NCBI RefSeq assembly: GCF_029589435.1
Contig: NZ_JARRAG010000002.1
Span: 3,968,001 to 4,032,000, forward strand
Direction of reading: 5' to 3'
Length of the DNA stretch: 64,000 nucleotides
Origin: Paludisphaera mucosa
Lineage (GTDB): Bacteria; Planctomycetota; Planctomycetia; Isosphaerales; Isosphaeraceae
Shown: positions 29,963-50,180 of the stretch, piece by piece
Layout of the letters: each line of letters begins with the position of its first letter
Numbering within the stretch: position 1 is the stretch's first letter
Made by a program: the position numbers and the translations under genes
Notes under the pieces: model-generated
What the model saw: the letters and a program-made list of their open reading frames with translations, nothing else
The model's database searches: none
What the model was told of the DNA's origin: nothing

Positions 29963-30976
29963 ATGGCGATCTGGTTCTCGTCGAAAAGCCCGGATTTCGG
30001 CTGGCTGTCCAACTTCTCGGCGCACGCCTTCTCGCTCGACGATCGACTCTGGCCGACTGTGGAGCATTATTTCCAGGCCCGCAAGTTCGCCGATCGGGAG
30101 ATTCAGGAACACATCCGCGCCGCGAAAACGCCCCAACAGGCCCGCAAGATGGGCCGCGACCGCTCGTTGCCGATCCGGCCCGATTGGGAAGAGGTCAAGG
30201 TCGACGTCATGACGCGCGTCCTGCGTGCGAAGTTCTCGCAACACCCTCGACTCAAGGCGGCCCTCTTGGCGACCGGCGACGCGCCGCTGCTTCACGAGTC
30301 GACTCGCGATCACTTCTGGGGGTGCAACCGGGCGGGGAAGGGGGGAAACCGCCTGGGTCGCATCCTGATGGACCTCCGCGAGTCGTTCGGGCGTCCGGGC
30401 CGGGACAGGCGACCGCCCACGTCCGACGCCGAATGGCTCGCCCACGAGCGGTCGTACGAGCTTCTGGAGTTCCTCGGGCCTCAGGTCGGCGAGCGTGAGC
30501 TTCGGGCCGTCGCCGCGGCCTGCTGCCGCCGCATCTGGCCCCACCTCGAAGAACGGAGTCGCCAGGGCGTTGAAGCGGTCGAGGACTGGCTCGACGGCCG
30601 GGTCCCCGAAGAGCGTCGCCGGGAGGCGGCCCGATCCGCCGCGCAGGCTTTCGCGGACGCGGCGCGAGCCCTCGACGTCGGCAAAAAGAACGGCCACCTG
30701 TTCCACGCCGCCCGAGCGGCGGCGGCCTGCTGCTGGCACCCCGAGGTCGCGATCGAAGCGGCGGCCGGCATCGAGCCGGTCCCGATCGACGGCCCCTTCG
30801 ACGCCGCCATGACGGCTCTCGTCGAGGCCGCGACCGCCCAGGCGGTCGGGGCGGTGCAGGAGGTCGGGCCCGTCGCGACGATGCACGACCGGCTCCACGA
30901 GGAGATGGACTTTGAGTACGCCGAGCAGGCCGCGATCGTCCGGCGGATCCTCGCGAATCCGTTCCGGCCGCGATGA
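29963..30976 (+). CDS. NADAR-domain protein fused to a planctomycete-type helical domain
   Basis: 337 residues. Residues 1-145 are a NADAR (YbiA-like, DUF1768) domain: WFSSKSPDFGWLSNFSAHAF, WPTVEHYFQARKF and LLHESTRDHFWGCNRAGKGGN cover its ligand-binding core. YbiA was described as an N-glycosidase acting on riboflavin intermediates, and other NADAR proteins act on ADP-ribosyl linkages. The rest (about 150-337) begins DAEWLAHERSYELLEFLG and continues AVAAACCRRIWPHLEERSRQGVEAVEDW, a paralog-rich domain I associate with Gemmata/Isosphaera genomes (recalled). Cytoplasmic. GGAGG lies before the ATG. The fused part may target the enzyme (inference). Confidence 0.8.
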   Translation: MAIWFSSKSPDFGWLSNFSAHAFSLDDRLWPTVEHYFQARKFADREIQEHIRAAKTPQQARKMGRDRSLPIRPDWEEVKVDVMTRVLRAKFSQHPRLKAALLATGDAPLLHESTRDHFWGCNRAGKGGNRLGRILMDLRESFGRPGRDRRPPTSDAEWLAHERSYELLEFLGPQVGERELRAVAAACCRRIWPHLEERSRQGVEAVEDWLDGRVPEERRREAARSAAQAFADAARALDVGKKNGHLFHAARAAAACCWHPEVAIEAAAGIEPVPIDGPFDAAMTALVEAATAQAVGAVQEVGPVATMHDRLHEEMDFEYAEQAAIVRRILANPFRPR

Positions 30977-31106
30977 CGCGATCCGTCGTCGCGAGCCCGC
31001 TGGAGGCCGGATTTTCCGGCGGCGCGCTCTTGCCGAGGGGGAGGGCGAGTCGCTACATTGATCGAACGCGCCGATCGTGGTTCGCCCGGGTCGGTAGAGA
31101 AGTGGC

Positions 31107-31134
31107 TTGAATCCGGTCGGCCGCCCGATATACT
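31107..31134 (+). promoter_or_regulatory. Promoter of the tRNA-tuf cluster
   Basis: TTGAAT (31107-31112), a 16-base spacer and TATACT (31129-31134) lie 24 bases before the first tRNA. The predicted start is about 31141. It is one of the best sigma-70-type matches in the window. Confidence 0.7.
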
Positions 31135-31158
31135 TGGGACTTTCACGGCCTGAACGCC

Positions 31159-31231
31159 GCTGGCGTAGCTCAACCGGCAGAGCAACGGTTTTGTAAACCG
31201 TAGGTTGTGAGTTCGACTCTCACCGCCAGCT
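31159..31231 (+). tRNA. tRNA-Thr (anticodon TGT)
   Basis: 73-base cloverleaf. The acceptor stem GCTGGCG pairs with CGCCAGC, the anticodon loop is TTTGTAA within ACGGT/ACCGT, and the T loop contains TTCGACTC. The CCA end is not encoded. First tRNA of the cluster ahead of tuf. Confidence 0.93.
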
Positions 31232-31324
31232 CTCCCGCACGACGCTTCGCCCGGGGCTGAACCTCCCGGCTTCGCCGTCCCTCTGCCTTTGCCTGGATCG
31301 GACGTCGGGGACTTGAAGCAAGAC

Positions 31325-31406
31325 GGGTGGATGCCCGAGTGGTTAAAGGGGCCAGACTGTAAATCTGGTGGCTCTGCCTTCGCAGGTTCGAATCCTGCTC
31401 CACCCA
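31325..31406 (+). tRNA. tRNA-Tyr (anticodon GTA)
   Basis: 82-base class II tRNA with a long variable arm. The acceptor stem GGGTGGA pairs with TCCACCC, and the anticodon loop CTGTAAA sits within CCAGA/TCTGG. The T arm GCAGGTTCGAATCCTGC is intact. Confidence 0.95.
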
Positions 31407-31485
31407 CTCGTCGGGATGCTAGGAAACGAGACAGGGAGGTTGGCGAGGGGGACGATCGAGACGGACGCCGGGATGGGGGACGCAC

Positions 31486-31556
31486 GCGGGTGTAGCTCAA
31501 TGGTAGAGTCCCTGCCTTCCAAGCAGGTCGTGTGGGTTCGATTCCCATCACCCGCT
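31486..31556 (+). tRNA. tRNA-Gly (anticodon TCC)
   Basis: 71 bases. The acceptor stem GCGGGTG pairs with CACCCGC, the anticodon loop CTTCCAA is within CCTGC/GCAGG, and the T loop reads GGGTTCGATTCCC. Confidence 0.94.
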
Positions 31557-31650
31557 CTGGCCCGGCGGATCGAGCCGCCCCCCGCGAGGCGGTGCGGTTT
31601 CCAGGATCGGTCGACCCGCCTCGGGCCCGCGAGACGTTCAACGCGAATAC

Positions 31651-31723
<73 letters not shown>

Positions 31724-31885
31724 TTCGGGTCGGTCGCCCGTGATCGGGCGTTGAGGAGTTTGCCCCGCGACCAGCCCCGGTCGTCGGGGAGGCCGTCCGA
31801 AGCGGACCTGGCCGGCGGGTGGGGCTTGGTGACGGATCCCCGCCGAAAGACTTGACTACGAGAATGCCGAAAAGGCGCTGAGCAC

Positions 31886-33097
<1,212 letters not shown>

Positions 33098-33104
33098 CCC
33101 GGCC

Positions 33105-33128
33105 CGGGGGGTGGATCGCCGCCCCCCG
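33105..33128 (+). other. Hairpin after tuf
   Basis: A 7-bp stem, CGGGGGG with CCCCCCG, sits 8 bases after the tuf stop. There is no T tract, so it may be an RNA-stability or pausing element and not a terminator; rpmG continues downstream. Confidence 0.4.
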
Positions 33129-33347
33129 CACACCGCCCGTCGCCCGACTTCCGACGGCCCTTCCCGGTCGGGGTTCCACCCGGATCGGGGGGGCCGCCGT
33201 GACGTTCACCCGCCGTAGAATTTGACGTCCGTTCCAGGTGCGGTCGCCCGCCCCCCCGGGGATCCGGGGCGTCGGGCCCGCGCCGCGAGTCTTCCAGGGG
33301 TGGTCCGGCGGAGTCCGAGGCGACGGCCGGAACCGGGGTTCATTACG

Positions 33348-33500
33348 ATGCGTGAATACGTCTGGCTCGAGTGCACCGGCTGCGGCGAGAGGAACTACCG
33401 CGTCCAGAAGGAGACCCGCGGGGCCAACCGTCTGGAGCTGAAGAAGTACTGCAGCCGCGAGCGGAAGCACATGCCGCACAAGGAATCGCGTAAGAAGTGA
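33348..33500 (+). CDS. rpmG: Ribosomal protein L33
   Basis: 50 residues; L33 of the large subunit. MREYVWLECTGCGERNY and NRLELKKYCSRERKHMPHKE are typical. It has Cys9, Cys12 and Cys35, but the fourth zinc ligand expected three residues later is Glu38. The ribbon therefore has three Cys only and may bind zinc weakly or not at all. The long open frame upstream (from 33222) lacks family support, so the ATG at 33348 is used. Confidence 0.93.
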   Translation: MREYVWLECTGCGERNYRVQKETRGANRLELKKYCSRERKHMPHKESRKK

Positions 33501-33636
33501 GCGGCCGCCGGGGCCGGGCGGGGTCCGATCCCCGAGCCCGGCCGACCGACGCGAGATCCTCCGCCCCGCCGGTCCTATTCCAGGCGACGGGGCGGCTGCC
33601 GGGCGGCCCCCTTCGGGGCGGTCGCCTCGAAACCAC

Positions 33637-33709
33637 ACGAGCGTAGCTCAATTGGCAGAGCACCGGTTTCCAAAACCGGCGGTTGGGGGTTCGATTCCCT
33701 CCGCTCGTG
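33637..33709 (+). tRNA. tRNA-Trp (anticodon CCA)
   Basis: 73 bases. The acceptor stem ACGAGCG pairs with CGCTCGT, the anticodon loop TTCCAAA is within CCGGT/ACCGG, and the T arm is GGGGTTCGATTCCC. It lies between rpmG and secE, a placement seen in several bacteria. Confidence 0.95.
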
Positions 33710-33869
33710 CTTCGACCGCCGCCCGGGAGTCGTGCGGCGGTCTCCCCGAGGGCGAGGCGGGTCGCCCGTCCGAGCGAGGCGCGACCCGTCTAGCGCGTCG
33801 CCCTCGTCCGCTTCGGTCCCCCTCCCCGACGGAGCATGCGGTTTCCCCATTCCGAATGGAACGGTCGAC

Positions 33870-34394
33870 ATGGGCAAAGTGAAAGACGAAGTCTCGGGGC
33901 AGAAGCCGACCAAGCCACCCAAAGGGAAACCGAGCGGGGGGACGCTGGGCGCGTTCGCCCTGTTCCTGGCGAATTTCTTCTCGCTCAAGCAGTACAAGCC
34001 CATGCAGGGCTGGCACGCCCGGATCTACACGGCGCTCGGCCTGGGCCTGATCGCCGGGGCCGGCGTCTACCAGGCCTATCAGTCCGCGATGGAGTATTCG
34101 CCGGCCTGGCGGCTGGGGATCCCGGCCCTGCTCGCGGCGATCCTGGCCTGGGTGATCTACCGGATCGTCCACTATCCGCAGTTCGCCGAATTCCTCATCG
34201 CCACCGAAGCCGAGATGAACAAGGTCTCCTGGACCACCAAGGAAGACCTCTACAGGTCGACGCTGGTGGTCCTGGCCACCGTCCTCTTCCTGGCCGTCTA
34301 CCTCTTCGTGGTCGACTGGTTCTGGCTCCTGCTCCTGCGGATCATCGGCGTGCTCCAGTTCAGCGGCGGCGGCGGGTTCGGCTCGACGTCTTGA
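33870..34394 (+). CDS. secE: Preprotein translocase subunit SecE
   Basis: 174 residues. The C-terminal SecE signature is present: an amphipathic helix with EMNKVSWTTKEDLYRSTLVVLAT, followed by one membrane helix (about 134-160). Ahead of it are two further hydrophobic segments (about 55-72 and 80-97), so this is a three-helix SecE as in E. coli, not the minimal one-helix type. It belongs to the SecYEG channel in the inner membrane. An open frame starts at 33732, but the Met at 33870 begins the Lys-rich cytoplasmic N-terminus and fits the gene order tRNA-Trp, secE, nusG. Confidence 0.92.
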   Translation: MGKVKDEVSGQKPTKPPKGKPSGGTLGAFALFLANFFSLKQYKPMQGWHARIYTALGLGLIAGAGVYQAYQSAMEYSPAWRLGIPALLAAILAWVIYRIVHYPQFAEFLIATEAEMNKVSWTTKEDLYRSTLVVLATVLFLAVYLFVVDWFWLLLLRIIGVLQFSGGGGFGSTS

Positions 34395-34599
34395 CGCCGG
34401 TTCGAGGGACTGGACTTCCTTCCCGGTCCCCGTTCGGCTATCCTAGTGGATTCCCCGCCGCCCGCCTCGCGACTTTCGCCGGTCGCACGCCGGCGGCGAG
34501 CCTTGACCGACGATCGGGATCCGACCCTCGCGAGAGCGACTCCCTCGGCCCCCGACCCCCCCTCGTCCCCGTACACCGAGACGCGCCGTACAACGTTTT

Positions 34600-35418
34600 A
34601 TGAGCCACCCGACGCACGAGTTCGACGAATCGGCCCCGCACTCCGAGATCACTCCTCCGGACGACTCCCCGTCGGCCGAACCGGCCGTCGAGGTCGAGGA
34701 GGAGACTCCGGACGGCGGCGTCGCGCGCGGCCGCTCGGCGCGCCCCGCCGCCAAGGCCCCCGCCCGTCCCCCCGCGGCGGTGGAGGAGGTCGAGGAGACG
34801 GCCGAAGAGCCCCCCGACGAGCCTCCCGCCGTCGAGGAGGACGAGGACGCCGACCCGCCGCCCGACCTGGTCTGGTACGTCCTCAAGGTCCAGAGCTCGC
34901 GCGAGGACACCATCGCCGAGGCGCTCCAGCGCCGGGTCAAGATCCAGGGCCTGGAGCGGTTCTTCGGCGTGACGCCCGAGGGCAAGCCGCGGATCGTCGT
35001 GCCGACCGAGAAGATCACCGAGATCCGCAACAACAAGAAGCGGATCGTCGAGCGCAAGACGTACCCCGGCTACATCATGGTCCAGATGGAGCTGAACGAG
35101 AAGACCTGGTTCCTGGTCCGGGAGACTCCGGGCGTGGGCGACTTCGTGGGGGCCCACGGCACGCCCACGAAGATGACCGAGGCCGAGGTCAACCAGATGC
35201 TCAACCAGCAGGAAGAGCAGACCACCGCCAAGTCGCCGACCGTCCGCATCGACGTCGAACGCGGCGATCGCGTGAAGATCAAGGACGGACCGTTCGAGAA
35301 TTTCGAGGGGACCGTCGAGGAAGTCATCGAGGGCCGCGGCCTGGTCAAGGTGATGCTCATCATCTTCAACCGCCCGACCCCCGTCGACCTGGAATACTGG
35401 CAGCTCGAGCGGATCTGA
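34600..35418 (+). CDS. nusG: Transcription termination/antitermination factor NusG
   Basis: 272 residues, longer than the usual 175-200. Residues 1-88 are a disordered Pro/Glu/Ala-rich acidic extension with an Arg patch (about 44-50). The NGN domain starts with LVWYVLKVQSSRED (about 89) and the KOW domain near 223 with GDRVKIKDGPFENFEG. A loop of about 25 residues between strands (about 120-140) is also enlarged. NusG tunes RNA polymerase elongation and links it to ribosomes and Rho. It lies 205 bases after secE and 106 before rplK. The extension could be a lineage feature. Confidence 0.95.
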   Translation: MSHPTHEFDESAPHSEITPPDDSPSAEPAVEVEEETPDGGVARGRSARPAAKAPARPPAAVEEVEETAEEPPDEPPAVEEDEDADPPPDLVWYVLKVQSSREDTIAEALQRRVKIQGLERFFGVTPEGKPRIVVPTEKITEIRNNKKRIVERKTYPGYIMVQMELNEKTWFLVRETPGVGDFVGAHGTPTKMTEAEVNQMLNQQEEQTTAKSPTVRIDVERGDRVKIKDGPFENFEGTVEEVIEGRGLVKVMLIIFNRPTPVDLEYWQLERI

Positions 35419-35524
35419 CCGGCCTCCGACGAGGGCGCGGGCCGACCGATCCGCCGCGTGACGACCCGAAGCGAAGACGAAGAATCCCGAAGCACAGGGA
35501 TCCCCAGGGGAGCGAGAATCCGCG

Positions 35525-35950
35525 ATGGCCAAGGTGATGACGGCGAAGGTCAAGCTGCAATGTCCGGGGGGACAGGCGACCCCCGCGCCCCCGGTCGGGC
35601 CCGCGCTCGGTCAGCATGGCGTGAACATCGGTCAGTTCGTGATGCAGTTCAACGAGCGGACCAAGGAAATGAAGGGGACGACGATCCCCGTCGAGATCAC
35701 GATCTACTCGGACCGGACGTTCGAGTTCATCACCAAGAGCCCGCCGGCCGCCGTGCTCCTGAAGCAGGCCGCGGGGATCGCCGCGGGGTCGGCGGTGCCC
35801 AACAAGACCAAGGTCGGCACGGTGACCGCGGAGCAGGTCCGCAAGATCGCCGAGACCAAGTTCCAGGACCTGAACGCCCGCGACCTCGACCACGCCTGCC
35901 GCGTCATCGCCGGCACGGCCCGCAGCATGGGCGTCGAGGTGAAGGGCTGA
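35525..35950 (+). CDS. rplK: Ribosomal protein L11
   Basis: 141 residues, the normal L11 length. [26 protein letters not shown] and the C-terminal RNA-binding motif [12 protein letters not shown]...[13 protein letters not shown] are typical. L11 binds the GTPase-associated region of 23S rRNA and is needed for RelA-type signalling. First gene of the ribosomal quartet; rplA follows after 229 bases. Confidence 0.97.
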
Positions 35951-36179
35951 GCGTGCAAGCGGCTTGAATACGAGGTCGTCGCGAAGGGGGATTCCCCGCC
36001 GCGGCGACCGTCGGCATGGGGGAGGGGCGGGGCCGTGGGGCCGCCGCCCGCCTCCGCGTCGCGGCCCTCGCCGCGACGTCGACCGGCCCGTCCCGGCGCG
36101 ACCGCCCGCCGACGGCCGGAGAGTCTCCAGACGAATCAGGCGGCAGCCCTTCCAGGTGGGGGGCGAAAGGGGTGACGAC

Positions 36180-36860
36180 TTGGCATACCGTTCCAAACGC
36201 TATCGCGCGCTGACGGCGAAGGTCAAAGCGCCCGCCGCGGTGGCGCTTCCCGACGCGGTGAAGCTCCTCAAGGGGTTCAACACCACGAAATTCAACCAGA
36301 CCGTCGAGGTCTCGACCCACCTGGGGATCGACCCCAGGCAGAGCGACCAGAACGTCCGCGGCTCGGTGGCCCTGCCGCACGGCATCGGCAAGAACGTCCG
36401 GGTGGCGGTGTTCGCCCAGGGCGAGAACGCCGAGAAGGCCCGCGCGGCGGGGGCCGACATCGTCGGCGCCGACGACCTGGCCCAGCAGATCAAGGGGGGG
36501 GTGATGGACTTCGACGTCGCCCTGGCCACGCCCGACATGATGGGCGTCGTCGGCCCCCTGGGCCGCGTGCTGGGCCCCCGCGGCCTGATGCCGTCGCCCC
36601 GCTCGGGCACCGTGACGACCGACATCGCCTCGGCGGTGCGGGAGTTCAAGGCCGGCAAGATCGAGTTCCGCAACGACAAGGGGGGGAACGTGGCGGTCCC
36701 GGTCGGGAAGATCAACTTCTCGGAGGATCAGCTCGTCGAGAACGTCAACGCCTTCCTGAACTACCTGCGGACGCTCAAGCCGGCGGCCTCGAAGGGGACG
36801 TACATCCAGACGATCACCCTCTCGGCCACCATGAGCCCCGGCATCCGGGTTTCCGCGTGA
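36180..36860 (+). CDS. rplA: Ribosomal protein L1
   Basis: 226 residues. [21 protein letters not shown] and [19 protein letters not shown] are the diagnostic L1 segments. It binds 23S rRNA at the L1 stalk and is often an autogenous translational repressor of its operon. The start is TTG at 36180, with AAAGGGGTG about 6 bases before it; no in-frame ATG or GTG lies near the family start. The open frame to 35964 has a shadow-like Arg-rich composition. Confidence 0.95.
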
Positions 36861-36933
36861 CCGGGCCGACGCCCGATCGCCCGAGGGGACGAAACCAACC
36901 GCATACGCCGAGACGGAAACCACGGTCCCAGTC

Positions 36934-37494
36934 ATGAGCAAATACGTCAAAGAAATGATGATGGATCAGCTCCGCGCCGACCTGGCCGACAGCCGGTCGA
37001 TGCTGATCCTCGACTTCAAGGGGCTGGACGCGGTCCGCGAGCACCAGTTCCGGATGGACCTGCGCAAGAAGTCGATCAAGGTGCGGACGCTGAAGAACAC
37101 CCTGGCGCGACGGGTCCTCGAAGAGGCGGGCGTGGCGGGGCTGGCGAAGTACCTGGAGGGGCCTTCGGTCCTCGTCTGGGGCGGCGCGGGCCCGGCCGAG
37201 CTGGCGAAGGAGATCTCCGCCCAGCTCAAGAAGCTCAAGAAGCCCGAGATCAAGGGGGGCGCCGTCGACGGCGTGGTGATCGGCCCCGAGCAGGTCGAGG
37301 ACATCACCAAGCTCCCCAGCCGCGAGGAGCTGATCGGTCGCGTGGCCGCCCTGGCGCTGGCCCCGCTCCATCGCGTCCTCTCGCTGGCCAACGCCCCGAT
37401 CAGCAGCCTGGCGAGCCAGCTCCAGACGATCGTCGAGGGGGCCCCGGCCGCCGAAGACGAGGCCGCCCCCGAGACCGCGCCGGAAGGCGCCTGA
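36934..37494 (+). CDS. rplJ: Ribosomal protein L10
   Basis: 186 residues. MDQLRADLADSRSMLILDFKGLDAVREHQFR, the KVRTLKNTLARRVLEEAG segment and a long C-terminal helix region are typical of L10, which anchors L7/L12 dimers to the stalk. The terminal 20 residues are acidic and Ala-rich. 73 bases after rplA; the leader is short and no L10 leader structure is obvious. Confidence 0.96.
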   Translation: MSKYVKEMMMDQLRADLADSRSMLILDFKGLDAVREHQFRMDLRKKSIKVRTLKNTLARRVLEEAGVAGLAKYLEGPSVLVWGGAGPAELAKEISAQLKKLKKPEIKGGAVDGVVIGPEQVEDITKLPSREELIGRVAALALAPLHRVLSLANAPISSLASQLQTIVEGAPAAEDEAAPETAPEGA

Positions 37495-37683
37495 CCCGAC
37501 CCCACGGGCCCCTCCGCCCGGCGGGCGGGCCCTTCGACTCATCGTGCTCGGGCGAGGGCCCCGGAGACCCCGGCGCCGCCCGCCCGGCAGGACCGACTTT
37601 CGTTTCCCGCGGGTGCGTCCGACGACGTACGCCGCACGATCCGCCCCGATCTCTCGATCGAGCAAGAAAGGACCGCTCTCGCC

Positions 37684-38088
37684 ATGGCCACCGCCGAAGC
37701 CCCTTCGTTCGCCGACAACATCAAGACCCTGGGCGACACCATCGTCCACCTGACCGTCCTCGAGGCCAAGGCCCTGGGCGACTACCTGGAAGTGGTGCAC
37801 GGCATCAAGCCGGCCGCCGCCGCGGTCGCCGCGGCCGCCCCGGCCGCCGCCGCCCCGGCCGAGGCCGTCGCCCCGAAGACCGAGTTCGACGTCAGCCTGG
37901 AGGCCGTCGGCCCCAACAAGATCAACGTCATCAAGATCGTCCGGGCCGCGACCGCGCTGGGCCTCAAGGAGGCCAAGGACCTGGTCGAGGCCGCCCCCAA
38001 GGACATCAAGACGGGCCTGTCGAAGGACGACGCCGAGAAGCTCAAGAAGGAGCTCGAGGAAGCCGGCGCCACCATCAAGCTCAAGTGA
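37684..38088 (+). CDS. rplL: Ribosomal protein L7/L12
   Basis: 134 residues. An N-terminal dimerisation segment (about 1-38), an Ala/Pro-rich hinge (about 40-62) and the globular domain [23 protein letters not shown]...[17 protein letters not shown] with the usual C-terminal GATIKLK. It forms the flexible stalk that recruits translation GTPases. 189 bases after rplJ; followed by an unusual 514-base spacer before rpoB. Confidence 0.97.
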
Positions 38089-38093
38089 CCGCC

Positions 38094-38163
38094 GCGGGGC
38101 GGCCCGGCCGCCCCGCCGCATCGTCCGCGATCGCCCGGGCCCTCGCACGCGAGCGGCCCGGGC
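38094..38163 (+). other. Two strong hairpins in the rplL-rpoB spacer
   Basis: Hairpin 1: GCGGGGCGG with CCGCCCCGC (38094-38116, 5-base loop), 5 bases after the rplL stop. Hairpin 2: GCCCGGGCC with GGCCCGGGC (38133-38163), containing a further CTCG/CGAG stem. Neither has a T tract. In E. coli this spacer holds an attenuator and an RNase III site, so a similar role here is possible (inference). Confidence 0.55.
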
Positions 38164-38602
38164 CGCCTCCCGGCACGATCGCCCGACACGAGGGGCGCGG
38201 GCGACGGCGTGACGCCGCCGGCCCGACCGCCCCCGTCGCCGTCTCTCGAAAGCCATGCTTCGCTCGGCCCGCGCCCGGTTCCCGGACGCGGCGGCCCTCG
38301 GCCCGGATGACGATGCACCACCGACGACCAGGACAGGCCGACGCCATCCCGGGGAGTTCCCGGACCGACCGCATTCCCGAACCCGCATCACCGGCCTCGT
38401 CGTTCCCGTTCGACTACCTCAAGACCCTCGACCGTCGCCACCCGGAGACGCCCGCGGACCCCCGCGGGCCGCTGCCGTTTGGGACGACCGACGACCGCCG
38501 CGAAGGGCCCGCCCGGACGGACGCGGGCGCCCGACCGGCGAGGCCGACGACGACCGCGACCCCGGCCCGTGCCCCTTTCCCTACTCGAGGAGCGCGACCT
38601 TA
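38164..38602. other. Remaining rplL-rpoB spacer
   Basis: About 440 bases with no convincing gene, tRNA or T-tract terminator. Frames here are open in several phases only because the sequence is GC-rich. GAGGAG appears just before rpoB as its Shine-Dalgarno sequence. Confidence 0.45.
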
Positions 38603-42322
<3,720 letters not shown>

Positions 42323-42466
42323 CGTCCCACGCCGGGGTCCCCGGCGGCCCCCGCGAACCCCGACCCGACCGCCCCTCGCGGGGCCTCGGGTCGGAGGGTT
42401 CGAGGGCCCGCCGCGAGGGCCCAAGTCGCGGCTCGTTCAGGCCTTGAGTTTATTTCGAGAATTCGC

Positions 42467-42495
42467 TTGGAATTGGCCCTCGGATTGCTTAGGAT
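42467..42495 (+). promoter_or_regulatory. Promoter-like element inside the rpoB-rpoC spacer
   Basis: TTGGAA (42467-42472), exactly 17 bases, TAGGAT (42490-42495). Each box matches 4 of 6 consensus bases, and the region is A/T-richer than its surroundings. The predicted start is about 42502, 205 bases before a terminator-like hairpin. Confidence 0.5.
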
Positions 42496-42501
42496 CAGAG
42501 G

Positions 42502-42706
42502 ATGCGACATTGTCGCGGAACGCGCTTCCGCGCCTAGCGAACGCCCACGCGCGGGGGAAGCGAGGGCCGGAGCGTCGCGGGGACGACGGGATCCGGCGGA
42601 TCCCGGTCAGGGAGGAGCCCAACTTGGCGACCCGGGTCTCAGGACGACCTTCATAAGAACCGCGGGGCCGCCCCGACGCCATCGGGGGCCCGTCCGCGGG
42701 TTTTTT
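42502..42706 (+). ncRNA. Candidate structured small RNA between rpoB and rpoC
   Basis: Bounded by the promoter-like pair upstream and a terminator-like hairpin at its 3' end. Internal hairpins: GCGACATTGTCGC (42504-42516), then CGCGGAA/TTCCGCG (42514-42532), which shares three bases with the first so the two are alternative. A third is GGGATCC-GGC-GGATCCC (42588-42604). No coding-like frame is seen. I recognise no SRP, RNase P or tmRNA consensus. Could instead be only a leader or attenuator for rpoC. Confidence 0.4.
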
Positions 42707-42707
42707 A
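42658..42707 (+). terminator. Intrinsic-terminator-like hairpin in the rpoB-rpoC spacer
   Basis: CCGCGG (42660-42665) pairs with CCGCGG (42694-42699); inside, CCCCGA (42671-42676) pairs with TCGGGG (42682-42687). It is followed by G then six T (42701-42706). It would cut transcription between rpoB and rpoC unless read through. Confidence 0.7.
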
Positions 42708-42899
42708 TTGTGCGGAGCGACGAGAGACGGGACGCGGCGCCCCGGCCCCGCCCCGATCGCACTCCCTGACGTGATCATGGTCTTGGTCTGAACTCGTCCG
42801 AGGGGTCCGACGCGGCGAAGAGGCGACGAAGGCGACCGTCGCCCCGCCCGCCGCATCGCCCGCCCTCGGATTCGCCGGAACCGCGGAGGAGAGTGTCTC

Positions 42900-47162
<4,263 letters not shown>

Positions 47163-47193
47163 CCCCGGCCCCGACCGCCATCTCGTAAACCCC

Positions 47194-47237
47194 GACGGCC
47201 CGCCTCCCGATCGACCTCGATCCGGACGCGGGCCGTC
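47194..47237 (+). terminator. Terminator-like hairpin after rpoC
   Basis: A 10-bp stem (GACGGCCCGC, 47194-47203, with GCGGGCCGTC, 47228-47237) encloses an inner GATCG/CGATC stem. The tail is only CGCATTTCC, so termination may be weak or Rho-aided. Same nested design as after the sigma factor gene. Confidence 0.6.
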
Positions 47238-47313
47238 CGCATTTCCCGAACGGTCGAAACGCCGATATAATGACCCCGCAGGCCGACCCCTCGGAGCCCC
47301 CAGGAGAGCCGCC

Positions 47314-48006
47314 ATGGCGACCGCGACCAAGCCCACCGCAGCGCCGACGGTCCCGACCCTCGAGAACGGCGACCACCTCTCCCGCGCCGAGTTCGAACGC
47401 CGCTACGACGCCATGCCCGGCCTGAAGGGCGCGGAGCTGATCGAAGGGATCGTCTACATGCCTTCGCCCGTCCGCTTTGCCCGTCACGGCGAGCCGCACG
47501 CCGCTCTGCTCGGATGGCTTTTCAACTACAAGCTCGCGACGCCCGGCCTTCGGTGCGCCGACAACGCCAGCGTGCGCCTCGATCTGGACAACGAGCCCCA
47601 GCCCGACGTCTTCCTGCTCATCGATCCGAAGCACGGGGGCCAGGCGGAGATCTCCGAGGACGACTACGTCGAGGGGGCTCCGGAGCTGGTCGCCGAGGTC
47701 GCCTCCAGCAGCGTGAGCATCGACCTGGGCCCCAAGCTGGACGCCTACCGCCGCAACGGCGTCCGCGAGTACCTCGTCTGGCGCGCCCTCGACGGCGCGT
47801 TCGACTGGCTCGTGCTCCGCGAATCTCGCTACGAGCCCCTCGCGCCGGACGCCGACGGCGTGCTGAAGAGCACGGTGTTCCCCGGGCTCTGGCTCGAGGC
47901 CGAGTCGCTCCTGGCCGGCGATCTGCCCAAGGTCATGGCGACGCTGAATCGGGGCCTCGCCACGCCCGAGCACGCGGCGTTCGTCGAGCGGCTGAAGGAC
48001 GCATGA
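47314..48006 (+). CDS. Uma2-family (PD-(D/E)XK-like) nuclease, copy 1
   Basis: 230 residues. Uma2/DUF820 restriction-endonuclease-like fold. Markers are LSRAEFERRYD, AELIEGIVYMPSPV (Glu), EPQPDVFLLI (catalytic Asp), APELVAEVASSSVSIDLGPKLDAY (catalytic Glu and Lys) and GVREYLVW. Such genes are greatly expanded in planctomycetes and cyanobacteria; whether they cut DNA is not established. The next gene is a paralog starting at its stop codon, and part of the two is identical in DNA. Confidence 0.88.
   Translation: MATATKPTAAPTVPTLENGDHLSRAEFERRYDAMPGLKGAELIEGIVYMPSPVRFARHGEPHAALLGWLFNYKLATPGLRCADNASVRLDLDNEPQPDVFLLIDPKHGGQAEISEDDYVEGAPELVAEVASSSVSIDLGPKLDAYRRNGVREYLVWRALDGAFDWLVLRESRYEPLAPDADGVLKSTVFPGLWLEAESLLAGDLPKVMATLNRGLATPEHAAFVERLKDA
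47656..47799 (+). repeat. 144-base segment identical to 48354-48497 (copy 1)
   Basis: This part of Uma2 copy 1 matches copy 2 base for base over 144 bases by eye, while flanking codons differ. It spans the catalytic Glu and Lys region. The 3' ends of the two genes also share a long near-identical stretch. Confidence 0.85.
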
Positions 48007-48014
48007 GGACTGGC

Positions 48015-48710
48015 ATGTCGACCGCGACCAGACCGACCCCAGCGCCGACGATCCCGCCCCTCGAGAACGGCGACCGGCTCTCCCGCGCCGAGTTCGAACG
48101 CCGCTACGACGCCATGGCCGGCGTGAAAGCCGAGTTGATCGAAGGGTTCGTCCACATGCCGTCGCCCGTCCGCCACAGTCGGCACAGCCGTCCCAACGCC
48201 CTCGTCGTCGCGTGGCTCCTGGTGTACGAGGCGGCGACGCCGGGGGTCGAGGCGGGCGACAACGGCAGCGTTCGGCTCGACCTCGAGAACGAGCCCCAGC
48301 CCGACGCCTACCTGATGATCCATCCCGGCCGTGGAGGTCAGGCGAGGATTTCGGAGGACGACTACGTCGAGGGGGCTCCGGAGCTGGTCGCCGAGGTCGC
48401 CTCCAGCAGCGTGAGCATCGACCTGGGCCCCAAGCTGGACGCCTACCGCCGCAACGGCGTCCGCGAGTACCTCGTCTGGCGCGCCCTCGACGGCGCGCTC
48501 GACTGGCTCGTGTTGAGGGAGGAGCGTTTCGAGCCGCTTGCCCCCGACGCCGACGGGTTGTGGAAGAGCACCACCTTCCCCGGACTGTGGCTCGACGGCC
48601 GGGCGCTCCTTTCGCTCGATTCGGCGAATATGCTCGCCGCGCTGAACCGGGGCCTCGCCACGCCCGAGCACGCGGCGTTCGTCGAGCGGCTGAAGGACGC
48701 CTCGGCATGA
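48015..48710 (+). CDS. Uma2-family nuclease, copy 2
   Basis: 231 residues, same fold as copy 1. The Asp of EPQPDAYLMI and the Glu and Lys of LVAEVASSS...GPKLDAY are retained. The Met is set by matching copy 1; another ATG at 48003 overlaps the copy 1 stop (ATGA) and would add four residues. GAGGA lies about 8 bases before the chosen start. The stop overlaps the uracil-DNA glycosylase start, so the three genes are probably one operon. Confidence 0.88.
   Translation: MSTATRPTPAPTIPPLENGDRLSRAEFERRYDAMAGVKAELIEGFVHMPSPVRHSRHSRPNALVVAWLLVYEAATPGVEAGDNGSVRLDLENEPQPDAYLMIHPGRGGQARISEDDYVEGAPELVAEVASSSVSIDLGPKLDAYRRNGVREYLVWRALDGALDWLVLREERFEPLAPDADGLWKSTTFPGLWLDGRALLSLDSANMLAALNRGLATPEHAAFVERLKDASA
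48354..48497 (+). repeat. 144-base segment identical to 47656-47799 (copy 2)
   Basis: Partner of the segment in Uma2 copy 1. Identity this long next to clearly diverged codons suggests gene conversion or recent unequal exchange (inference). Confidence 0.85.
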
Positions 48711-49369
48711 GGGCGGACGCCACGGTTCGCGCCTCCGAGCGGGCTCGTCGACGGCTGATCACGCTCAACGCCGAGATCCGGGGTTGCCGGCTTTGCCACG
48801 CGGCCGGCTTCCTCGACGAGGCCGAGTCGGTGCCGATCGCCCGCGACCCCGAGCCCGATGCGCCGACCCCGCGCATCCTGCTGGTCGGCCAGGCCCCGGG
48901 TCTGCGTGCGACGATCACCGATCGACCGTTCGCGGGGGCCGCGGGGAACAAGCTCCGCGACTGGTTCGAGCAGGGGGGGATCCCCCGCGAGGACTTCTGG
49001 CGCAAGATCCACTTCTCGGCCGTCACCCGTTGCTATCCCGGTCGGCTGCCGGGCGCGAAGGGCGACCGCGTCCCGTCGCCACAGGAACAGGCGCTCTGCC
49101 GGCCGTGGCTCGACGGCCTCGTCGACGTCGTCAAACCGCGCATCGTCCTTTTGGTCGGCCTGCTCGCCGTGCGGACCTTCCACGGCCCCGTCAAGTCGCT
49201 GGCCGCCGTCGTCGGCGAGGCGACCGTCCGCGACGGCATACTTTACATCCCCCTCCCGCACCCGTCCGGCGTCAGCCGGTGGCTCAACGAGCCCGCCAAC
49301 GTCGCCGCCGTCGCGCGAGCCATGCGGATCCTGCGCGAGGCCGTGGACGACCTCGATCGCGTCCGGTGA
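48707..49369 (+). CDS. Fe-S uracil-DNA glycosylase (family 4-like)
   Basis: 220 residues. Motif A GQAPG (61-65) and motif HPSG (185-188) of the uracil-DNA glycosylase superfamily are present. Four Cys (27, 30, 109, 131) match the spacing of the Fe-S cluster of family 4 enzymes. It removes uracil from DNA to start base-excision repair. Its ATG overlaps the stop of Uma2 copy 2 (ATGA). Family 5 is possible; no experiment-like evidence distinguishes them here. Confidence 0.88.
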   Translation: MRADATVRASERARRRLITLNAEIRGCRLCHAAGFLDEAESVPIARDPEPDAPTPRILLVGQAPGLRATITDRPFAGAAGNKLRDWFEQGGIPREDFWRKIHFSAVTRCYPGRLPGAKGDRVPSPQEQALCRPWLDGLVDVVKPRIVLLVGLLAVRTFHGPVKSLAAVVGEATVRDGILYIPLPHPSGVSRWLNEPANVAAVARAMRILREAVDDLDRVR

Positions 49370-49446
49370 AATCAGGTCGCCCTACTCGCCTTGCGCCGGG
49401 GCAGAGAACTCGGCACGCGTGTGGGGGGCGGCGAGGGGTTTGCTCG

Positions 49447-49629
49447 ATGCCCGAGTAGCTCGCCAGCGTACCTCGCGGCGTCGGCCGCAAGGCCACCGAG
49501 AACCTGGTCGCCGACTCGGCCGACGATGCCGTACGGCTCCTGCGCCACAGGGGCTGCGACGAGATCGTGCTGCACAACGACCACGTCATGGACGTCTTCA
49601 CCCGCCGGCGGGAGTTCGAAGCGAGCTGA
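49447..49629 (+). pseudogene. Small ORF interrupted by an amber codon at position 4
   Basis: Starting with an ATG preceded by GAGGGG, the frame reads Met-Pro-Glu-stop (TAG at 49456-49458). It then continues open for 56 codons to TGA at 49627. The rest has nearly complete G/C third positions and a protein-like composition (for example ADSADDAVRLLRHRGCDE), so it looks like a real coding sequence of about 60 residues that has lost one codon. I do not recognise the family. A sequencing error at one base would also explain it. It lies between the glycosylase gene and the GntR operon promoter. Confidence 0.5.
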
Positions 49630-49705
49630 TCGACCGCTGCGATCGGGCGATCGCCCTGTCGCCGGCATGAGAAATCGTCGCCGGAGCGAAATCCGACGTC
49701 ACCTC

Positions 49706-49734
49706 TTGACGTCTGTCGGACCCTCGCCGATACT
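49706..49734 (+). promoter_or_regulatory. Promoter of the GntR/ABC operon
   Basis: TTGACG (49706-49711), 17 bases, GATACT (49729-49734). Predicted start about 49741. GGAGG lies shortly before the GntR ATG. Confidence 0.7.
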
Positions 49735-49757
49735 GTACTAGTTCAATAACACACTAG
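49734..49757 (+). promoter_or_regulatory. Possible GntR (YtrA-type) operator
   Basis: An A/T-rich block covers the predicted start site. It has two similar half-sites, TGTACTAG (49734-49741) and ACACTAG (49751-49757), spaced about one turn apart. In a genome this GC-rich, the composition alone is notable. Repressor binding here would block initiation. Inference from position only. Confidence 0.45.
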
Positions 49758-49769
49758 GAGGCCGTGGCG

Positions 49770-50180
49770 ATGCTGATCGATCTGAGCGAGTCGGACGGCC
49801 GGCCGATTTACGGGCGGATCGCCGACAGGATCAAGTTCGCGATCGCGGGCGAGGTCTTGCGTCCTGGGGAGCTGGCCCCGTCGGTGCGCGAGCTGTCGAA
49901 GCAGTTGGTGGTGAACCCCAACACCGTCGCGCGGGCGTATCGCGACCTTCAGAGCGAGGGGCTGCTGGAGCCGGTGCGGGGGACGGGGCTGCAGGTCGCC
50001 ACGGGCGCGACCGAGCGGTGCCGGCTGGCGCGGGTGGAGTTCGTCCGCGGCCGGCTCCGCGCGGCGATCGAGGAGGCGCGGGAGACCGGCCTCGCGGCGG
50101 ACGACATCGGCGCGATCCTCCGCGAGGAGTGGTCGCGGGGCGAGGGGACGGGCGACCGGACGAACGGGAGGGGCGCGTGA
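49770..50180 (+). CDS. GntR-family (YtrA subfamily) transcriptional regulator
   Basis: 136 residues: winged helix-turn-helix only, with PIYGRIADRIKFAIAGEVLRPGELAPSVRELSKQLVVNPNTVARAYRDLQSEGLL at about 12-66. A short helical dimer segment follows and there is no large effector domain, as in YtrA. Such regulators usually control a neighbouring ABC transporter, and the ATPase gene overlaps its stop here. GGAGG lies 8 bases before the ATG; a GTG 6 bases upstream is too close to it. Its own promoter contains a candidate operator, so autorepression is likely (inference). Confidence 0.92.
   Translation: MLIDLSESDGRPIYGRIADRIKFAIAGEVLRPGELAPSVRELSKQLVVNPNTVARAYRDLQSEGLLEPVRGTGLQVATGATERCRLARVEFVRGRLRAAIEEARETGLAADDIGAILREEWSRGEGTGDRTNGRGA

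Follow-up and report, generated by a model that had tools for sequence, protein, structure and literature searches.

A conserved promoter, leader and terminator precede rpoC in the Isosphaeraceae and most likely form an attenuator, with translation of a tiny open reading frame as its likely switch

The window analysed here is a stretch of 64,000 nucleotides from Paludisphaera mucosa, which belongs to the Isosphaeraceae (hereafter the family; 45 family genomes were compared, the own genome being G000). rpoB ends at position 42322 of the window and rpoC starts at 42900, so the two genes are 577 nt apart instead of near-adjacent, in agreement with an earlier reading made from the letters alone (the sequence-only reading). 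The cell requires the β and β′ subunits in equal amounts, and their genes normally lie side by side. Such a spacer is unusual for the class, since the spacer measures 57-322 nt in 32 of 35 genomes of other families, picked from 88 non-family class genomes, and is longer in the other three. Rfam covariance models gave no match to the spacer at E ≤ 1, and the scan of positions 30000-50000 at the same threshold returned five tRNAs and two sub-threshold matches on the strand opposite to tRNA genes. A divergent SRP or 6S RNA, suggested by the motif GGTCAGG, was rejected because the own genome has an SRP RNA (64.4 bits) and a 6S candidate elsewhere; the latter (L013; G000:C2:3358311-3358475, minus strand), possibly a divergent 6S RNA, scores 40.8 bits for a cut-off of 46.4 (E 2.5e-6). 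The features of the spacer are given in Table 1.

Table 1. Predicted features between rpoB and rpoC, and the gene that follows (positions of the window)
Feature	Position	Strand	Basis
Leader promoter: -35 TTGGAA (42467-42472), 17 nt, -10 TAGGAT (42490-42495)	42467..42495	+	family-wide common layout
Putative leader RNA, ~205 nt	42501..42706	+	conservation; transcription start probably near 42500-42503
5' hairpin GCGAC/GTCGC	42504..42516	+	sequence
Hairpin CGGGATCC/GGATCCCG, just 5' of the Shine-Dalgarno	42587..42605	+	sequence, fold
Shine-Dalgarno GGAGG of the leader ORF, in conserved TCARGGAGG	42611..42615	+	comparison
Leader ORF, TTG start, 10 codons (MATRVSGRPS) and TAA	42624..42656	+	start site conserved, peptide not
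Hairpin GGTC/GACC, GGA in the loop	42635..42649	+	sequence, comparison
Intrinsic terminator: CCGCGG...CCGCGG stem (42660-42665/42694-42699), then T6 (42701-42706)	42660..42706	+	sequence
rpoC, gene preceded by the leader	42900..47162	+	gene call, upstream position of the element

The predicted promoter lies exactly where the sequence-only reading had seen a promoter-like pair with 17-base spacing. A strict consensus promoter scan of the window did not have this TTGGAA-17-TAGGAT pair among its results. Its layout, searched as the regular expression CTTGG-N18..22-TA..AT, precedes rpoC in 26 of 37 family sequences versus 0.18 expected from base shuffles. A family-wide comparison of the promoters, seven of them placed by eye, showed the same layout. 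The distance from the -35 element to the motif GATGCGA, which begins at 42501 in the window, is identical in seven sequences (the five congeners, G009 and the own genome). A TGTCAAG box, perhaps a regulator site, recurs immediately 5' of the CTTGG -35 in L042, L044, L050, L056, L060 and G012.

At the other end of the unit, the hairpin with T6 previously reported at 42658-42707 is present. A terminator scan of the window listed two minus-strand sites (0.6 expected) and did not list this hairpin, probably because its stem is bulged. Among 27 element sequences, 25 could be parsed for the terminator (G022 and G025 remained unparsed, and G063 was mis-parsed, its values being slightly off). All 25 contain a hairpin of -20 to -30 kcal/mol, with a mean z of -3.3, and at least five T occur in the nine bases after it in 21 of them (22 counting G063). 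The T-run is degenerate in G006, G021 and G023, which counts against universal termination. The gap from the terminator to the rpoC start is 133-288 nt in the 24 genomes measured, which leaves too little room for a typical gene to have been inserted.

A DNA search of 59 genomes (the own genome and relatives) detected the element in all five congeners and in one other genus (G009); conservation in close relatives, on which the sequence-only reading had made its proposal depend, was thus found. Weak DNA matches at L009, L011 and L012 in relatives and at L002 in the own genome were rejected, the element not being visible there by eye. A covariance model of the 3' part (R1; 7 sequences, 126 positions) gave 13 matches beyond its training set at E ≤ 0.1, 12 of them just upstream of rpoC in 12 further family genomes; the thirteenth, L034 (G001, E 0.0095), lay away from rpoC and was dropped. 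A second model (R2; 22 sequences), which acts mainly by sequence because its bracket string is displaced for two of its three helices, was scanned over 397 genomes of the class. R2 matched 26 of the 45 family genomes at E ≤ 1.8e-5, and a local search of the loci upstream of rpoC added G006 (E 1.6e-4) and G025 (E 9.9e-4), both weak, leading to 28 element genomes. Each of the 26 genomes carries one strong copy, located immediately 5' of rpoC wherever the contig could be read; in G009, where one contig breaks off at the element and another begins with rpoC, the arrangement is consistent with adjacency. Two other weak R2 matches in family genomes (a second place in G031, and G029) were assumed to be due to chance.

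Outside the family, the R2 scan of the 397 class genomes gave nothing convincing: the matches in nine non-family genomes (E 9.6e-5, the best, to 0.0095; two genomes with two matches) were assumed to be chance. As controls, 80 non-family rpoC loci gave ten matches at E ≤ 1, the best at 0.042 and on the minus strand, and 35 class rpoC loci gave three, the best at 0.033 and also on the minus strand. The best 80 rpoC relatives listed reach up to 85% identity, and nearly all are labelled as planctomycetes. Within the family, 13 genomes whose rpoC upstream region is readable had no match in the class scan, among them G006 and G025, which match weakly as described above; no convincing match was found in G007, G010, G013, G016, G017, G024, G027, G030, G064, G065 and G066. 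On inspection by eye, G013, G030, G065 and G066, which form one genus, retain the promoter and a GACTCCA motif within a longer spacer, G007 and G016 show a similar promoter and a T-rich-ended hairpin but lack the core, and G010, G027 and G064 have a TTGACA promoter instead (unscored). The region upstream of rpoC was unreadable in G008, G026, G034, G036 and G061, and the rpoC match of G029 begins at residue 31.

The comparison brought out a feature that the sequence-only reading had missed, a Shine-Dalgarno and TTG start (42611-42626) from which a 10-codon ORF runs to within 3 nt of the terminator stem. GGAGG (GAGG in G035) followed 6-9 nt later by ATG, GTG or TTG is found in 25 of 27 elements, counting G015, whose Shine-Dalgarno was set one base off, and with five core positions placed by hand; the two elements without a standard start are G021, with CTG, and G025, with none. 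Weighted by genus, the Shine-Dalgarno and start reach 11.7 of 13, versus at most 3.8 of 13 for windows of equal width at an offset of 10 or more. Genera differ in the first base of the start (A, G or T), whereas the following TG is constant. G012, which belongs to neither model, has GGAGG-6-GTG and, by eye, an ORF stopping at the terminator, together with a recognisable promoter (CTTGGAATT...) whose -10 is less clear. The sequence GGATCACCTCCTTT, the usual 16S 3' end, occurs at three places in the own genome. No conservation is seen in the encoded peptides (MATRVSGRPS in the window, MTPWV in G011, MRFDVSQA in G035, MSRGLGGPA in G020), and the ORF length ranges from 5 to more than 80 codons, exceeding 40 codons in ten elements. 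The ORF stops 0-16 nt 5' of the terminator stem in 14 of 25 elements and enters or crosses the stem in 11 of 25, a spacing that constitutes weak evidence because the stretch is short. A ribosome on the ORF would sit on or beside the terminator, which would explain why the start site only is conserved. We also rejected a leaderless ORF that would begin with the ATG of 42502, since this ATG is not kept (AAG in L028 and L029, absent in others).

Regarding structure, the internal hairpins proposed at 42504-42516 and 42587-42605 are both seen in the sequence. In many other genera, GACTCCA occupies the site of the 5' hairpin and is able to base-pair with a TGGAGTC located 5' of the core, and in many genera the Shine-Dalgarno lies within the loop of a CCGG...CCGG hairpin (both by eye). 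Compared to shuffles, the whole RNA folds with no unusual energy, the z being 0.13 for the RNA of the window and -1.47 and 1.03 for two further element sequences, so that the evidence for the element is its conservation, not its stability. In a pair count on 22 sequences, 82.5% of the cells are paired in the right register versus 25-51% in slid registers. The covariation check suggested for the spacer RNA was not significant: the 22 element sequences covary no more than column shuffles, corrected columns included (the MAFFT alignment shifts hairpin 2 by one column in some rows), and the proposed switch between overlapping hairpins receives no support from covariation. The case rests instead on sequence, position and the start site. 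Taken with the conservation described above, which supports well the earlier proposal of a discrete unit of ~205 nt with its own promoter and terminator, the spacer almost certainly contains a real conserved transcription unit.

In this family, the rpoB-rpoC pair has split repeatedly. In G028 and G059, rpoB lies ~39 kb from rpoC on the opposite strand, and the element stays at rpoC. Inserted genes put between 1.1 and 4 kb between the two genes in G002, G011, G012, G023, G035, G060 and G062. In G009, G015, G020 and G022, rpoB is on a different contig, which is weaker evidence than true separation, and no rpoB is present in the 1.4-1.5 kb upstream. Thus, in 13 of the 28 element genomes rpoB lies on another contig, on the opposite strand or more than 1 kb from rpoC; another 13 have it no farther than 0.9 kb off, and in two (G006 and G019) it could not be placed. 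Counting against the association, rpoB and rpoC are separated in G024, G017 and G016 and no element match is found. A quick rpoC tree (900 nt, 37 genomes, 8 of 34 inner branches open, weak matches scored as present) shows at least 8 changes in linkage to rpoB, against 3 in presence of the element. The adjacent upstream gene is divergent in G002 (AlkZ-like, by Pfam), G022 (S9 peptidase, by Pfam), G028 and G059 (in these two, a long ORF with a third-position GC of 0.93-0.95). In such cases rpoC follows no same-strand gene, which makes the element's promoter the obvious promoter of rpoC. The upstream gene is on the same strand in G009 (tatC), G015 (Uma2-like ORF) and G012 (trypsin-like ORF).

Since the unit follows rpoC and not rpoB on separation, including the divergent cases, we favour a leader acting in cis over a free small RNA. 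The sequence-only reading had called it a possible small RNA gene: the unit itself is conserved as proposed, and the name is probably not the best one. As a free-standing trans-acting small RNA, the unit would lie 5' of rpoC by chance and would pair through the G-rich GGAGG loop or bind a protein, which would suit its own promoter and strong terminator, its single strong copy per genome and its conserved G-rich loop. However, the element keeps beside rpoC while the linkage to rpoB changed at least eight times, none of the 26 genomes has a strong copy elsewhere, and it was always at rpoC where readable, not free of one neighbour. Such an RNA would moreover not need a start codon at Shine-Dalgarno spacing, and the T-run is degenerate in some elements. 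We therefore regard this alternative as unlikely. The cis promoter-leader of rpoC, as read from sequence and position, is the probable identity of the unit.

Less probable still is an RNA controlled by CsrA, in which CsrA would bind the GGA hairpins (the CARGGAGG loop and the GGTC/GACC loop) with the RNA serving as a sponge or CsrA regulating the leader ORF. CARGGA resembles the CsrA consensus, GGA is present in hairpin loops of most relatives, including the second loop of many sequences by eye, and every one of the 45 family genomes has CsrA genes (between 4 and 13 matches; the own genome has 9). The presence of CsrA in every genome also means that it cannot be correlated with the element. 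The likeness to CsrA-bound leaders and CsrB-type RNAs lies in GGA being in hairpin loops, one of them overlapping the Shine-Dalgarno. In contrast to these RNAs, the element has few sites, with one or two GGA loops only, whereas CsrB-type sponges carry many GGA sites, and the conserved motif is the full GGAGG plus the start codon. In G035, the core loop (GTGAGG) has lost GGA and keeps GAGG and the start codon, which fits a Shine-Dalgarno function better than CsrA binding. Independently of the element, CsrA is strongly multiplied in the own genome and in the family.

It is also improbable, to a slightly greater degree, that the spacer contains only an rpoB terminator and a spare rpoC promoter that regulate nothing. 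Separate units would need no more than these two signals, but the promoter is located 5' of the terminator, so that it is the transcript of rpoC itself that meets the terminator; the element also persists where rpoB is far away and contains a conserved Shine-Dalgarno and start. No conserved rpoC promoter was noticed in the sequence 3' of 42706. Finally, a messenger for a conserved micro-peptide, which the conserved Shine-Dalgarno and start codon could suggest, is largely refuted and highly improbable, given peptides that differ in sequence and in length from 5 to more than 80 codons.

The unit is best compared with attenuators. The trp, his and pyrBI attenuators consist of a promoter, a short leader ORF and an intrinsic terminator before the structural gene, and the element resembles these leaders by description, with a promoter, a short predicted ORF and an intrinsic terminator before rpoC. 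Sequence and conservation place a promoter upstream of the leader, and the terminator hairpin precedes the structural gene in 25 of 25 parsed elements. Unlike in trp, his and pyrBI, the peptide of the element is not conserved, only its start site; the control codons or stalling peptide of classical attenuators are absent, the peptides not being conserved, so the element does not belong to the trp/his or arrest-peptide subtype. Among known systems, the rplL-rpoB attenuator of the E. coli rplKAJL-rpoBC operon comes closest (PMC4670729, PMC10931766); it decouples ribosomal proteins from the two RNA polymerase subunits (PMC4670729). Both attenuators lie in the same gene cluster and decouple neighbouring genes; the E. 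coli one parts ribosomal proteins from rpoB and rpoC, whereas the planctomycete element sits between rpoB and rpoC. A promoter of its own, a start site within the leader and its staying with rpoC when rpoB leaves further set the element apart, and the two are likened by position and role, not by sequence. A literature search, mostly at the level of abstracts, returned nothing on an rpoC leader element. The conserved promoter-leader-terminator before rpoC is thus undescribed in the literature searched; it is most likely an attenuator, with translation of the tiny ORF as its likely switch.

Comparison of the genomes demonstrates, at the level of sequence, the conserved unit, its association with rpoC, its conserved Shine-Dalgarno and start, and its terminator. 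We propose, with a probability of about 0.65, that the element supplies rpoC with its promoter and an attenuator-type 5' leader and that translation of the tiny ORF is the likely switch. Transcription would start near 42501 and yield the leader of ~205 nt, and the transcript would either end at the terminator or continue into rpoC. GGAGG and TTG would start the very short ORF, which ends right against the terminator stem. A ribosome translating it could cover or unwind the stem in response to some signal, so that rpoC would be transcribed, and the terminator would form when the leader start is left untranslated. That translation gates termination in this way is an almost even call. Where rpoB immediately precedes the element, transcripts of rpoB would stop at this terminator too, and β and β′ would be set separately; the side remark of the sequence-only reading that the terminator would separate their dosage fits best here. 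More tentatively, the element may be a ribosome-gated attenuator throughout the family, in which the start matters and the peptide does not, such that β′, and with it core RNA polymerase, would follow the capacity for translation initiation independently of β; it may have arisen where the rpoB-rpoC pair was coming apart. If the leader ORF gates the terminator, it would provide a direct RNA link from translation to RNA polymerase supply. A family that repeatedly splits rpoB from rpoC while keeping the rpoC promoter-leader also represents a natural experiment on RNA polymerase stoichiometry.

Other observations concern the surroundings of rpoC. A conserved stretch ending in GAGGAGAGTGTCTC lies directly before rpoC, at 42840-42899 in the window and at the corresponding ends of the upstream regions of relatives, and is often preceded by a possible small hairpin. 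rpoB and rpoC are ~15-39 kb apart in G028:C1, G059:C223, G017:C1 and G016:C48, and occupy far-apart places of a single contig in G024:C2. The rpoB-rpoC gap of G012 contains a Uma2 gene (PF05685), and similar ORFs were seen by eye in G011 and G015. In the window, rpoC is followed at 47314-48710 by two similar tandem ORFs that look Uma2-type by eye.
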